Assembly: GCF_009847015.1 (NCBI RefSeq)
Contig: NZ_WVEM01000005.1
Span: forward strand, 62,001-126,000
Direction of reading: 5' to 3'
Length of the DNA stretch: 64,000 nucleotides
Origin: Sunxiuqinia indica
Lineage (GTDB): Bacteria > Bacteroidota > Bacteroidia > Bacteroidales > Prolixibacteraceae
Shown: positions 29,444 to 54,281 of the stretch, one piece after another
Layout: each line of letters opens with the position of its first letter
How positions within the stretch are numbered: position 1 is the first letter of the stretch
Made by a program: the position numbers and the translations under genes
The notes under the pieces: generated by a model
Seen by the model: only the letters and a program-made list of their open reading frames with translations
Database searches by the model: none
What the model was told of the DNA's origin: nothing

Positions 29444-29507
29444 TGTGAATTGTGTAACTTTTTCAGGAAGTTATGTAACCCTTATCCTGAATATATTGTG
29501 ACCTTTA
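29444..29507 (+). promoter_or_regulatory. RTGTAAC-21 promoter A (AraC-kinase operon)
   Basis: TGTGAAT at 29444, GTGTAAC at 29452, ATGTAAC at 29473 (21 bp apart), then GACCTTTA at 29500 as -7 box (27 bp on, one less than in the other seven sites). No TTTG -33 box. It drives the small AraC gene and, in the same run, a hybrid kinase and response regulator, so the regulator probably controls itself. Confidence 0.75.
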
Positions 29508-29530
29508 CACAGATTTCTCAAAAAAATAAT

Positions 29531-30124
29531 TTGAAACTCTATATCAAATACATGGTAAGCAACCGCTGCAAAATGGCGGTAAAGGAAGACCTCAAAAGGC
29601 TTGGACTACATTTCATTATGGTCGATTTAGGTGAGGTTGAAATTATGGAGAACATCTCCGAAGAACAGCGCGAGCAGGTGAAAATTGCTTTGCTCAATTC
29701 GGGATTTGAGCTAATGGACAGTAAACGAGCTGTTTTGATTGAAAAAATTAAAAATACTGTCATCGAAATGGTTCATCATTCAGATCACGTAATCAAAACT
29801 AACTTTTCCAACTTCCTAAGTGAAAAATTAAACCACGATTACACCTATCTCTCCAACTTATTTTCAGCCATACAAGGAACGACCATTGAGCAATTTATTA
29901 TCGCACATAAAATTGAGCGAATTAAAGAATTGATTATTTACGGCGAGCTGAACATTACAGAGATTGCATGGAAGATGAATTACAGCAGTGTGGCCCATTT
30001 ATCCAATCAATTTAAGAAAATGACGGGCCTTACTCCTTCGCACTTTAAAAAACTGAAGGGGCAAAGACGCAGTCCGATTGAACACATCGGAATTTTATTG
30101 AATAACGATGGCACTAATAACTAA
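29531..30124 (+). CDS. Small AraC-family regulator with ferredoxin-like (HMA-type) N-terminus
   Basis: 197 residues from a TTG at 29531, chosen because the paralog at 41139 starts at the matching residue (MKLHIRNMVSNRC versus LKLYIKYMVSNRC). An ATG at 29552 is the alternative and gives a leader length nearer the other members. The upstream ATG at 29441 lies inside the promoter motif and is excluded. Residues 1-65 look like a heavy-metal-associated beta-alpha-beta fold (MVSNRCKMAV, VDLGEVEI) in which the first Cys of the usual CxxC is Ser. Residues 85-185 are an AraC double helix-turn-helix (LNITEIAWKMNYSSVAHLSNQFKKMTGLTPSHFKK). Five bases separate it from the kinase gene. Confidence 0.82.
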   Translation: MKLYIKYMVSNRCKMAVKEDLKRLGLHFIMVDLGEVEIMENISEEQREQVKIALLNSGFELMDSKRAVLIEKIKNTVIEMVHHSDHVIKTNFSNFLSEKLNHDYTYLSNLFSAIQGTTIEQFIIAHKIERIKELIIYGELNITEIAWKMNYSSVAHLSNQFKKMTGLTPSHFKKLKGQRRSPIEHIGILLNNDGTNN

Positions 30125-30129
30125 CAAAA

Positions 30130-32139
30130 ATGGAACAAACGAGGTCACACCAGTCACAATACGCCGGCAGCTTGATCGAAGCCAATCGCGCGCCCTTGGT
30201 TGTGATCAGCCCCAAGGGAAAAATTACTGACATGAACGAGGCCCTGGTTAATACGACCGGAGTATCGCGAGATGAGCTGAAAGGAACCGGATTTCTTGAT
30301 TATTTCACGGAGCCTCTAAAAGCCCATCAGGTTTATCAGGAAGTATTTGCAAAAGAATCGGTTACCGATTCTCCATTAACGCTTCGTCATGCCAATGGCA
30401 AATTGACCGATGTTTTGTATAACGGTTCGGTCTACAAAGACGACCAGGGAAATGTGCTGGGTGCGGTAATTGTTGCCCGCGATGTGACCGAGCAAAAACG
30501 GGCTGAAAATGAGCTAACCGAAGCCATTGTATTTGCCGAGCTGGCCGTTGATATTGCCGAAGATGCCAAATTAAAAGCAGAACATGCCACACGGATTGCC
30601 GAAAACGCGGTGAAAGCCAAACAGCAGTTTTTGTCGAATATGAGCCATGAAATCCGCACCCCCATGAATGCGATTATCGGCTTCACCAAAGTATTACTCA
30701 AGACCGAAATGACTGCCAAACAAAAGGAATACCTGGCAGCCATTAAGCTGAGTGGTGATGCATTGATTGTGTTGATCAACGACATTCTGGATCTGGCAAA
30801 AGTAGATGCCGGAAAAATGACTTTCGAACAAACCCCCTTTAAAATAGCGGCTTCTGTTTCGGCCATGCTTCATTTGTTTGAAACAAAAATTCACGAAAAA
30901 AATCTCAACCTGGTCATGGAGTACGACCAAAATATTCCTGAAATTTTGGTTGGCGACTCGGTCCGCCTGCACCAGATTATTTCAAACCTGGTGGGCAATG
31001 CCGTTAAATTTACAAACAAGGGGAAAATCACGGTTGACGTAAGTTTACGAAGCGAAGACGAGAAAACAACAACCATCCAGTTTTCAGTTACCGATACCGG
31101 AATAGGGATAGCCGAAGAAAAATTGGAAAAAATATTTGAGAACTTTCAGCAGGCGACAAGCGGAACTTCGCGCATTTATGGAGGAACCGGCCTGGGCTTG
31201 GCTATCGTTAAACAATTGGTTGAATCACAAGGAGGAACGGTGACCGTAGAAAGCACGGCTAACCAGGGGTCAACATTTAGCTTTACGCTAGATTTCCTGA
31301 AAACCTCTGAAGATGCTGAATTTGATTCAGGGGTCTTTGAGTTGGACAGCGAACTTGAAAATATAAACATTCTTGTTGTTGAAGACATCGTTCTCAACCA
31401 ACTTCTGATGCGAACCGTACTCGATGATTTCGGTTTTAAACTCGATATTGCCGAGAACGGAAAAATTGCCATTGAAAAGCTTCGGGCTAAATCCTACGAC
31501 CTTATTTTAATGGATTTGCAGATGCCCGAAATGAATGGGTTTGATGCAACTGATTACATCCGCAACACGATGAAATTGCAAATCCCGATCATCGCCTTAA
31601 CGGCCGATGTGACTACTGTTGATCTGGCCAAATGTAAAGCCGTTGGAATGGATGACTACATTGCCAAGCCAGTGGACGAACGCTTATTGTACAGCAAAAT
31701 AGTTGCATTCGTTAAAAAAACAGCTCCCAAAAACCTTAGCGAATCACAAGCCAAAATTATTGATGAAATTATCGTAAACAGCTGTATTAATTTAGAATAC
31801 TTAAATGGCCGAACCAAATCGAATCCGAAACTAATGATGGAAATGATTTCGGTCTATCTGGAACAAACACCATCCTTAATTTCAAACATGAAAAAAGGCT
31901 TGATCGACAAAGACTGGAACCTGCTGTACGCTTCCGCTCATAAAATGATCCCTTCTTTTTCAATCATGGGCATGGGAGTCGAATCAGAAAACCTGGCAAA
32001 AAGGGTTCAGGAATATGCCAGCACACAGCAACAGACGGGAGAAATATCGGAGCTGGTAGGGCAACTCGAAACCGTTTGCACGCAAGCCTGTAATGAATTA
32101 AGAGTAGAGTTAAACCGGATAAAAAACACCGCATCATGA
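30130..32139 (+). CDS. Hybrid sensor histidine kinase PAS-HisKA-HATPase-REC-HPt
   Basis: 669 residues, cytoplasmic (no membrane segment). PAS is at about 15-125, a short coiled coil at 125-165, HisKA with phospho-His173 (SNMSHEIRTPMN) and HATPase with N-box NLVGNAVKF, G1 DTGIGIAEE and G2 GGTGLGLAI. A receiver follows (VVEDIVLNQLLM, phospho-Asp in LILMDLQMPEMNG) and a C-terminal HPt domain (SAHKMIPSF). This is an ArcB/BvgS-type relay built on a soluble PAS sensor. It overlaps the next response regulator by 4 bp, so that protein is the likely phosphoacceptor. Confidence 0.93.
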   Translation: MEQTRSHQSQYAGSLIEANRAPLVVISPKGKITDMNEALVNTTGVSRDELKGTGFLDYFTEPLKAHQVYQEVFAKESVTDSPLTLRHANGKLTDVLYNGSVYKDDQGNVLGAVIVARDVTEQKRAENELTEAIVFAELAVDIAEDAKLKAEHATRIAENAVKAKQQFLSNMSHEIRTPMNAIIGFTKVLLKTEMTAKQKEYLAAIKLSGDALIVLINDILDLAKVDAGKMTFEQTPFKIAASVSAMLHLFETKIHEKNLNLVMEYDQNIPEILVGDSVRLHQIISNLVGNAVKFTNKGKITVDVSLRSEDEKTTTIQFSVTDTGIGIAEEKLEKIFENFQQATSGTSRIYGGTGLGLAIVKQLVESQGGTVTVESTANQGSTFSFTLDFLKTSEDAEFDSGVFELDSELENINILVVEDIVLNQLLMRTVLDDFGFKLDIAENGKIAIEKLRAKSYDLILMDLQMPEMNGFDATDYIRNTMKLQIPIIALTADVTTVDLAKCKAVGMDDYIAKPVDERLLYSKIVAFVKKTAPKNLSESQAKIIDEIIVNSCINLEYLNGRTKSNPKLMMEMISVYLEQTPSLISNMKKGLIDKDWNLLYASAHKMIPSFSIMGMGVESENLAKRVQEYASTQQQTGEISELVGQLETVCTQACNELRVELNRIKNTAS

Positions 32140-32567
32140 ACAAAAATAAAATAAAACTCTTCCTGGTCGATGACGACGCCGTGTTCCTGAAACTGTTGCA
32201 AATAGAATTCATGGAGCAAGCCAATTTTGATATCGAAACCTTCGCTACCGGTGAGCTTTGCCTTGAAAGTTTATCGCACCATCCTGATGTGATCATTTTA
32301 GACTATCATCTGGATGGGGTGGATCCCGACGCCATCAACGGGATTGACACACTGGATGAAATCAAAGCTTTCGACCCGGAGATTCCTGTGATCATGTTGT
32401 CTTCTCAGGATAAAATCGATGTAGCCATCAACTGCATGCACCACAAGGCAACTGACTATGTTGTTAAAAGCGAAACTGCCTTCCTGCGGCTGAAAAAAAT
32501 CATCTCAACCACTTTGGAAACCAAAAAACTCGAAAGGCAATTAAACTGGTACATGGATCGCATGTGA
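32136..32567 (+). CDS. Stand-alone response regulator (receiver only)
   Basis: 143 residues. Acidic pocket DDD at 13-15, phospho-acceptor in IILDYHLDG, switch residue in IMLSSQDK and the Lys in VVKSETAF. There is no DNA-binding or enzymatic domain; the tail after about 125 is one charged helix. Its ATG overlaps the TGA of the hybrid kinase (ATGA), which implies translational coupling. It probably ends the operon AraC-kinase-regulator. Confidence 0.9.
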   Translation: MNKNKIKLFLVDDDAVFLKLLQIEFMEQANFDIETFATGELCLESLSHHPDVIILDYHLDGVDPDAINGIDTLDEIKAFDPEIPVIMLSSQDKIDVAINCMHHKATDYVVKSETAFLRLKKIISTTLETKKLERQLNWYMDRM

Positions 32568-32748
32568 TCAATTTCAACTTTTCATCCGTTTAAAATTTGA
32601 GAACGGATGGAACCGCTCTGCTCTCACATAAACTTTTTTAATCATCCTTGTTTGTGAATTTTTGATTAATAAAGTTCATGTTCGTTTCAATCTATCAAAA
32701 ACCTCTGTAATACAAGGGGTTTCTTATTAGCATCAACAAGCTGCAATG

Positions 32749-53924: not shown

Positions 53925-53978
53925 GGGCTAAAGCCCAGACTTGCTTCGTCGCAACGGACCGGCCCTGAAGGACCGGGT
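53925..53978. repeat. REP palindromes GGGCTAAAGCCC and CCGGCCCTGAAGGACCGG
   Basis: GGGCTAAAGCCC at 53925-53936, then about 20 bp on a relative of the CCCTGCCCTgaAGGGCAGGG element (53956-53978). The order and spacing copy those found after the RAYT gene (48405-48456). Confidence 0.75.
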
Positions 53979-54004
53979 TACTAACTGGTGCGACACCCAA
54001 AGAC

Positions 54005-54036
54005 AGAAGAAGAAGAAGAAGAAGAAGAAGAAGAAG
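54005..54036. repeat. (AGA)n microsatellite
   Basis: An uninterrupted AGA run of about 10.7 units inside the REP cluster. No gene covers it. Its length is likely variable between strains. Confidence 0.85.
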
Positions 54037-54083
54037 TACCAGCACGAAATCAGATTCCTCCGATGCGAAGCCAGCGACTCCAT

Positions 54084-54190
54084 CACTACCCCCCCCCGGA
54101 TTCACCAAAAGAGGTATCGGCGACAGCGTCACTAACCCCCGGATTTATCCGGGGGACACCAAACAGCCTGCAACAACCGGGCTTTAGCCC
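54084..54190. repeat. REP cluster upstream of the ice-binding gene
   Basis: A further 43-bp-type unit at 54084 (with extra C residues), a unit with complete CCCCCGGATTTATCCGGGGG at 54136-54155, and GGGCTTTAGCCC at 54179-54190. The cluster stops 26 bp before promoter H. Confidence 0.8.
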
Positions 54191-54216
54191 AAAACAAATC
54201 TTCAATCGATTGAATA

Positions 54217-54281
54217 TGTGAATTATGTAAGGATACCCTTTTATTGTGTAATAGTTCCCGCGAATATTAAGTACAGCTTTG
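54217..54281 (+). promoter_or_regulatory. RTGTAAC-21 promoter H (ice-binding protein operon)
   Basis: TGTGAAT at 54217, ATGTAAG at 54225, GTGTAAT at 54246 (21 bp), -7 box CAGCTTTG at 54274 (28 bp). Predicted start about 27 nt before the ATG at 54315. Confidence 0.7.

Follow-up and report, generated by a model that had tools for sequence, protein, structure and literature searches.

AraC of Escherichia coli at araI1-araI2, as well as MelR and RhaS, are class-II activators that bind direct half-sites 21 bp apart, with the promoter-near one lying over the -35 region. The same 21-bp direct half-sites, the same overlap with the -35 region and a DNA-binding domain with two helix-turn-helices (HTHs) characterize the system described here, that is, eight copies of a tandem-repeat element in a 64,000-nt stretch of the Sunxiuqinia indica genome (contig NZ_WVEM01000005.1, positions 62,001–126,000; below, the window), and two AraC-family proteins encoded among them. 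It differs from E. coli AraC in that the N-terminal domain is small and apparently HMA-derived, not sugar-binding, in that the promoters have a Bacteroidota -7 box, and in that many stress and envelope genes are covered. SoxS, MarA and Rob bind as monomers, to one site that is roughly 20 bp long; with them the system would share an AraC-family protein placed over a multi-gene stress regulon, whereas here tandem pairs are found throughout and the proteins have an additional N-terminal domain.

The gene list reported here resembles those of the sigma-B and RpoS regulons, and the target kinds common to our system and the sigma-B, RpoS and EcfG regulons are CsbD, YtxH, lmo0937, Usp, ferritin and superoxide dismutase. 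Those regulons depend on alternative sigma factors, in contrast to the combination of an activator site and a housekeeping-type -7 box seen here. To our knowledge, Bacteroidota have no RpoS, sigma-B or EcfG-type switch, and their general stress control is unknown. As in the hybrid two-component systems of Bacteroides, an AraC output and a histidine kinase are encoded together, but the two are not fused here, and polysaccharide loci are not among the targets. With the copper regulators CueR, CsoR, CopY and CusR, the CxxC branches of the AraC family considered below share the location of the regulator gene beside genes of P1B ATPases, and none of these four is known to us as an HMA-bearing member of the AraC family. 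The main text of a survey of copper genes in Bizionia (PMC11213822) names ArsR, MerR, CopY-like and CusR-like candidates, and the word AraC occurs in it 0 times. A literature search, with bioRxiv preprints and the majority of subscription papers outside its coverage, returned no description of the element, of an HMA-AraC family or of such a regulon. As far as this search shows, we probably deal with a class-II AraC-type regulon whose regulator family, operator and content are new. For a stress/envelope regulon of Bacteroidota, this provides an operator resolved to single bases together with named candidate regulators.

Judging by sequence comparison, the eight elements are probably operator-promoters of one regulon under AraC-type activators with an HMA-derived N-terminal domain. 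The class-II AraC reading fits best because of the 21-bp spacing, the fixed promoter offset, the adjacency of AraC genes and the co-occurrence of the element with one AraC clade. The pattern TGT(G/A)AATnnTGTAA-n16-TGTAA has eight exact matches in the window and none besides, at the positions and strands reported in the initial annotation (Table 1). The distance of exactly 21 bp between the repeats, also claimed there, stands out among TGTAA–TGTAA pairs of the window, ten of which are at 21 bp, compared to 0–2 at every other distance up to 60, and comparison of the sites bears out the -7 box 28 bp after repeat 2 (27 bp at site A). At seven sites an ATG of the gene is found 35–52 nt past the -7 TTTG, and at site A the TTG start of AraC1 follows it at 26 nt. 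Two of these ten pairs, at 55166 and 55601, were rejected as operators, as they are identical 26-nt TGTAA-n16-TGTAA coding repeats in the ice-binding gene and lack TGTGAAT.

The operator was described on an alignment of 118 sites, taken from 681,866 bases (40 fetched stretches, one of them with the pair of sites from contig C22 of the same genome, and the window) and anchored on the operator alone. The aligned sites have AATG before the first base, then TGTGAAT-n-A-TGTAAC-T-Y-T-T, and then AATT-n-TGTAAC-A-C-T-T. As positions 4–18 resemble positions 25–39, the operator consists of two copies of the unit rAATnnTGTAACnCTT at a 21-bp step, unit 2 being in register. TGTGAAT, initially annotated as a box of its own, belongs to repeat unit 1 as its upstream half, and a separate third box is therefore rejected. 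The Bacteroidota housekeeping promoter consensus is -7 TAnnTTTG and -33 TTTG, and by its sequence the fixed box at +58 to +64 is a -7 box of this type: in full-length sites A is present at +58 in 94%, T at +61 and +62 in 100%, T at +63 in 79% and G at +64 in 72%, the first T of TAnnTTTG being found in 35%. In 104 further sites outside the alignment set, from the matches listed in a scan of named genomes with a stricter pattern (119 minus 11 training duplicates, three short sites and one repeat), 102 have TT and 90 have A at +58. A -33 TTTG was not seen in the aligned sites; its position is occupied by repeat 2, as had been proposed. Conservation stops at the operator and the -7 box, and in 82 of the 118 sites the script-chosen start codon is less than 60 nt past the -7 TTTG.

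This anatomy suggests that a single AraC subunit would contact each half-site with both of its HTHs, and that the downstream half-site would fill the missing -33 place, the bound dimer recruiting housekeeping RNA polymerase to the -7 box in the class-II manner; the polymerase would need such help because the promoters lack their own -33 TTTG. Binding of AraC proteins to these sites is thus predicted from sequence, and activation rather than repression, from the geometry and from known AraC proteins. AraC1 would activate its own operon, including the PAS-hybrid kinase and the receiver protein, and the AraC2 gene ends within the operator of the next gene.

Scanning of the whole genome and of relatives, suggested in the initial annotation, gave the following. 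In the whole assembly (5,250,885 bases, 39 contigs) the TGTRAAW form of the pattern finds ten sites, eight in the window and two on contig C22, compared to 0 for the reversed pattern. With up to two mismatches allowed on the 18 fixed bases the same ten sites are found, none of them with two mismatches, and the reversed control is again 0; therefore, the set is sharply bounded. Eight of the ten sites fall within 24.8 kb. A weight matrix built from 108 sites of other genomes, with the window and the C22 pair excluded, scores the window sites at 32.6–70.7; a sister matrix, with the window sites included, gives no score above 7.4 over 5 Mb of first-order Markov sequence. The strict element is present in 42 of 149 genomes including our own, with 256 copies in 41 of the 148 relatives and 15–23 copies in each of six of them; the reversed pattern is absent from all 149. 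In G085, a single 5.7-Mb contig, all seven strict sites are inside 35.8 kb. The proposed regulon is not confined to this region, given the two C22 sites and up to 23 sites in relatives.

The scan of named genomes yielded at least 118 stretches with the element, nearly all from metagenome assemblies. Among the matches listed are Prolixibacteraceae, Draconibacterium, Mariniphaga (including the named strain Mariniphaga sediminis SY21), Paludibacter, Odoribacter, Lutibacter, Flavobacterium, Gelidibacter, Saprospiraceae, Chitinophagaceae and Ignavibacteriae. A simple pattern search predicts targets across many genomes. A stricter pattern, with more consensus bases and TTTG, kept site B alone, so that a strict search loses real sites.

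The regulators of the element are likely the two AraC proteins of the window, which are the only ones with regulator-type DNA-binding domains (HTH_18, E-values 1.1e-16 and 4.2e-18) among 30 scanned window proteins (approximately 26.7–58.7 kb). They are 61% identical, and the start of AraC1 agrees with relatives, which align from the same LKLYIKYM start. Class-II activation of one regulon by an AraC protein, as initially annotated, is supported, and the single activator of that annotation is not established, because the window holds two paralogous candidates.

Positions of sites were compared around 122 AraC genes of this family (128 matches, six being dropped as identical or shorter than 150 aa). 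In 32 of them the operator begins 5 nt before the gene end, and hence the stop codon is part of the operator, TG-TGA-AT in the stress-side clade, to which the window proteins belong, and mostly TG-TAA-AT in the CxxC branches; AraC2 with site D is such a case. The best site is located 87–94 nt upstream of 12 genes, AraC1 among them, and 158–198 nt upstream of six. A PAS-hybrid kinase homologue follows within 320 nt after 25 of 56 SxxC stress-side AraC genes, and input from this kinase to the AraC proteins may be supposed. Our genome also has two more tandem HMA-AraC genes (L294, G000:C34:194750-195950), one with an in-frame TGA, and a 21-bp repeat stands behind the CxxC copy.

The element and the AraC clade tend to occur in the same genomes. 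With AraC2 as the query against the 148 relatives and clade membership set at 220 bits or more (this cut and the 212-bit cut mentioned below were picked after the hits were known), 31 relatives have both, ten the element only, four the clade only and 103 neither (Fisher p 5e-19, kinship not corrected). The association is also seen within genera: six of nine species of genus g19 have both and three neither; in genus g1, three of seven have both, our own included, and four neither. All four clade-only genomes have a near-match (score 35–54) beside the AraC gene (L100, L101, L117, L316), and a site with a score of 27 or more lies within 1.5 kb of 28 of the 30 best AraC loci (our own among them). 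Outside the order the operators seem to diverge in sequence: G492 (L246) has an operator variant at the AraC stop codon, and at L259/L260 a weak TGTGATATATGTAA variant is placed between the AraC gene and a CsbD-like gene.

In this AraC family the N-terminal 65 residues appear to descend from copper-binding domains of the HMA type. A profile built from 87 members matches, with residues 3–71 or less, the HMA domains of CopA (1p6t, 3.6e-5; 2rml, 3.2e-4), ATP7B (2ew9, 1.4e-3), CopZ (6ff2, 3.3e-3) and 2kyz (8.1e-3), where 1p6t, 2rml and 2ew9 are two-domain chains with whole-chain values, no single stretch passing alone, and 6ff2 and 2kyz are single-stretch matches. Residues 74–183 of the profile match AraC-family DNA-binding domains, the structures being those of AraC, YesN, GadX and SoxS. 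In hhalign, the N-domain of the CxxC branch matches the HMA domains found in adjacent ATPases (E 1.8e-5, probability 78%), and the stress-side N-domain matches that of the CxxC branch (E 6e-35).

By their gene neighbours, the CxxC branches are linked to metals. Out of 34 CxxC genes outside the stress-side clade, 26 have a metal-transport or metal-binding gene within 320 nt downstream (18 P1B ATPases, five ArsP-HMA permeases, two small HMA proteins and one heavy-metal-binding protein); ten such neighbours were scanned, nine having these families and one no hit. On the stress side a metal gene follows one of 77 AraC genes, L265, a metal-branch protein that the 212-bit cut leaves on this side and the tree places with the metal branch. 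Moreover, the 21-bp repeat is found behind the stop codon of 21 of the 34 CxxC-branch genes, in all 21 with a -7 box, compared to 1–6 (0–5 with the box) at 15 other spacings and to 58 (16 with the box) in 3088 random windows. Behind stress-side genes it is found in 38 cases of 77, compared to 0–9 at other spacings. As the repeat recurs behind genes of both kinds, with an operator consensus that varies from branch to branch, the 21-bp geometry looks common to the whole family, with its sequence tuned by branch.

A tree of 121 rows from a short search (one of the 122 AraC rows was dropped) contains 61 SxxC, 55 CxxC and five other sequences, and requires several changes between CxxC and SxxC. Copper-type metal sensors encoded next to P1B ATPases and HMA permeases are the most likely origin of the family, and a branch of it, often without the first metal-ligand cysteine, seems to have been recruited to the envelope/general-stress regulon; the branching and the damaged CxxC point to the direction from metal to stress. 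If so, the case suggests how a metal-sensor family may change its job yet keep its DNA geometry. More tentatively, as a conceivable extension that we would not yet favor, HMA-AraC proteins would be undescribed metal-type activators of Bacteroidota, with the ligand-less branch having become a main stress/envelope switch, transferable in islands and fed by PAS-hybrid kinases.

A number of observations weigh against the AraC proteins as readers of the element. Two of them, the element-only relatives and the site-bearing stretches without such an AraC, would suit a separate, unlinked DNA-binding protein that reads the repeats, the AraC genes being mere passengers or targets in islands. The ten element-only relatives have no clade member at the 220-bit cut; five of them are 82–85% complete, one of which, G083, shows a fragment of AraC at the end of a contig, and the other five (G063, G086, G093, G120, G135) are 94–100% complete. 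Three of eight species of genus g8 are element-only, and genera g7, g11, g15, g16 and g17 have one mismatch each. In a sample of the phylum outside the order, with at most eight candidates scored per genome, the strict element is present in seven of 19 clade-bearing genomes and in ten of 375 others (the best AraC hit being at 212–219 bits in six of these ten), and a site with a score of 15 or more was found at ten of the 29 best AraC loci that were fetched from this sample. Finally, among the matches listed, AraC of this family is encoded in 22 of 118 site-bearing stretches (up to 8 kb) and absent from the remaining 96. We still consider an unlinked reader unlikely, given the same architecture behind CxxC-branch AraC genes, mostly before metal genes, the branch-specific consensus, and the absence of any other regulator-type domain among the scanned window proteins. 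Repression by AraC proteins covering the -33 region is slightly harder to accept; repeat 2 does overlap the polymerase site, but these promoters themselves have no -33 TTTG, and the fixed distance from the repeat to the -7 box fits polymerase contact, not a road-block. That the copies arose by chance or from a spreading repetitive element is hardly credible: they are clustered in one region, but their conservation ends with the -7 box and the reversed control is empty in every genome scanned.

Given AraC-type activators, the signal may be disputed, and the regulon could still be a metal (copper/silver) or thiol-stress response rather than general stress, which we find rather doubtful, though deserving attention. 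The family resemblance and the metal-gene neighbours of other branches agree with it, as do the second cysteine, invariant in 87 sequences, and the VCIRCQ group inside the stress side, which retains CxxC and uses the same operator as the window, so that cysteine loss and operator change are uncoupled. On the other hand, both AraC1 and AraC2 are SxxC and lack the CxxC metal ligands, the window targets are of CsbD-like, YtxH, Mla, OmpA, M48 and ice-binding types, and the site-driven genes of relatives encode ferritin-like proteins, superoxide dismutase, Usp, baeRF family 3, MarC, bestrophin-like and YceI proteins, and a cation ATPase without an HMA hit. From these target types we infer stress as the trigger. 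The metal ancestry of the window proteins has its own difficulties, as the stress-side N-domain profile alone gives 3% against HMA in hhalign and Pfam HMA has no hit in AraC1 or AraC2; thus, they are HMA-like solely via the CxxC branch. The branches joining the stress-side proteins are supported at 92 and 87 in the short-search tree, below the mark of 95. As for the regulon content, M48 homologues occur in stretches of only two of 19 genomes.

In the VCIRCQ group, AraC genes (L102, L106, L110, L113, L319) are often followed by a gene for a putative B12-binding radical-SAM enzyme or, alternatively, for a small cupin-like protein; after CxxC stress-side AraC genes such genes, named by reading of the sequence, are found in six and four cases of 21, respectively. 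A single cupin-like protein was scanned and had no Pfam hit.

Table 1. Sites and genes of the window, by position; minus-strand elements start at the higher coordinate
Feature	Position	Strand	Remarks
Site A, two 21-bp units and -7 box	29444..29508	+	5' of AraC1 gene (putative autoregulation) and its kinase/receiver operon
AraC1, seemingly HMA-derived N-terminal domain (SxxC), AraC-type HTH, TTG start	29531..30124	+	Pfam HTH_18
PAS-hybrid histidine kinase	30130..32139	+	Pfam; after AraC1
Stand-alone receiver protein	32136..32567	+	Pfam Response_reg
Site B	32749..32813	+	Before small secreted/membrane protein genes
Small protein, signal-like and transmembrane segments (by reading)	32851..33204	+	No Pfam or NCBIfam family; homologues in stretches of 8 of 19 genomes
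lmo0937-family membrane protein (DUF5670)	33253..33408	+	NCBIfam, Pfam
Two further small membrane proteins	33410..33866	+	Weak DUF202 match; Thivi_2564 family
Site C	34067..34131	+	Before CsbD-like gene
CsbD-like protein	34166..34354	+	Pfam CsbD, under curated cut-off
Unknown 142 aa, YtxH, Holin-X-like, unknown 132 aa, AI-2E transporter family	34616..37379	+	3' of CsbD-like gene
CheB-CheR-PAS protein and 181-aa protein (no Pfam family)	37572..41025	+	Between sites C and D
AraC2, seemingly HMA-derived N-terminal domain (SxxC), AraC-type HTH	41139..41696	+	Pfam HTH_18; TGA stop 41694-41696 inside site D
Site D	41692..41756	+	Holds AraC2 stop codon; before M48 protease
M48 peptidase	41798..42598	+	Pfam
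MlaE, ABC ATPase (MlaF position), MlaD, lipid transport	44923..47525	-	Pfam
Site E	47557..47621	-	Before mlaE-mlaF-mlaD
Glycine-zipper OmpA protein and outer-membrane beta-barrel	48852..50239	-	Pfam
Site F	50281..50345	-	Before glycine-zipper OmpA gene; back to back with site G
Site G, TGTAAAT variant	50374..50438	+	Before genes of PAS protein and hybrid kinase
PAS protein and hybrid histidine kinase with two receiver domains	50487..53173	+	Pfam
Site H	54217..54281	+	Before ice-binding protein
Ice-binding protein with InlB-type repeats, then OmpA/beta-barrel protein	54315..58715	+	Pfam

Homologues of the window genes were counted in 19 genomes, solely inside the motif-bearing stretches fetched from them (the C22 stretch of our own is included), and the counts have no background rate: CsbD is present in 12, AraC in 11, lmo0937 and OmpA in nine each, YtxH in eight, MlaE/F/D in seven and ice-binding proteins in six. 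Downstream genes were scanned for ten of the 118 sites, eight in relatives and the two on C22, which face a 57-aa and a 108-aa protein, neither with a Pfam family. The genes at 34616..37379 may, judging by their position, be co-regulated from site C. The CheB-CheR-PAS fusion itself (37572-40475) is located within the island, with homologues in fetched stretches of four of the 19 genomes.

The region 47715-48751, between site E and the OmpA genes, contains an open reading frame (47977-48408) for a Y1-type (IS200-like) transposase, with direct repeats of 57–154 nt on either side, which are 80–93% alike and contain palindromes. Such palindrome-bearing repeats around a Y1 transposase resemble transposase loci associated with repetitive extragenic palindromes.

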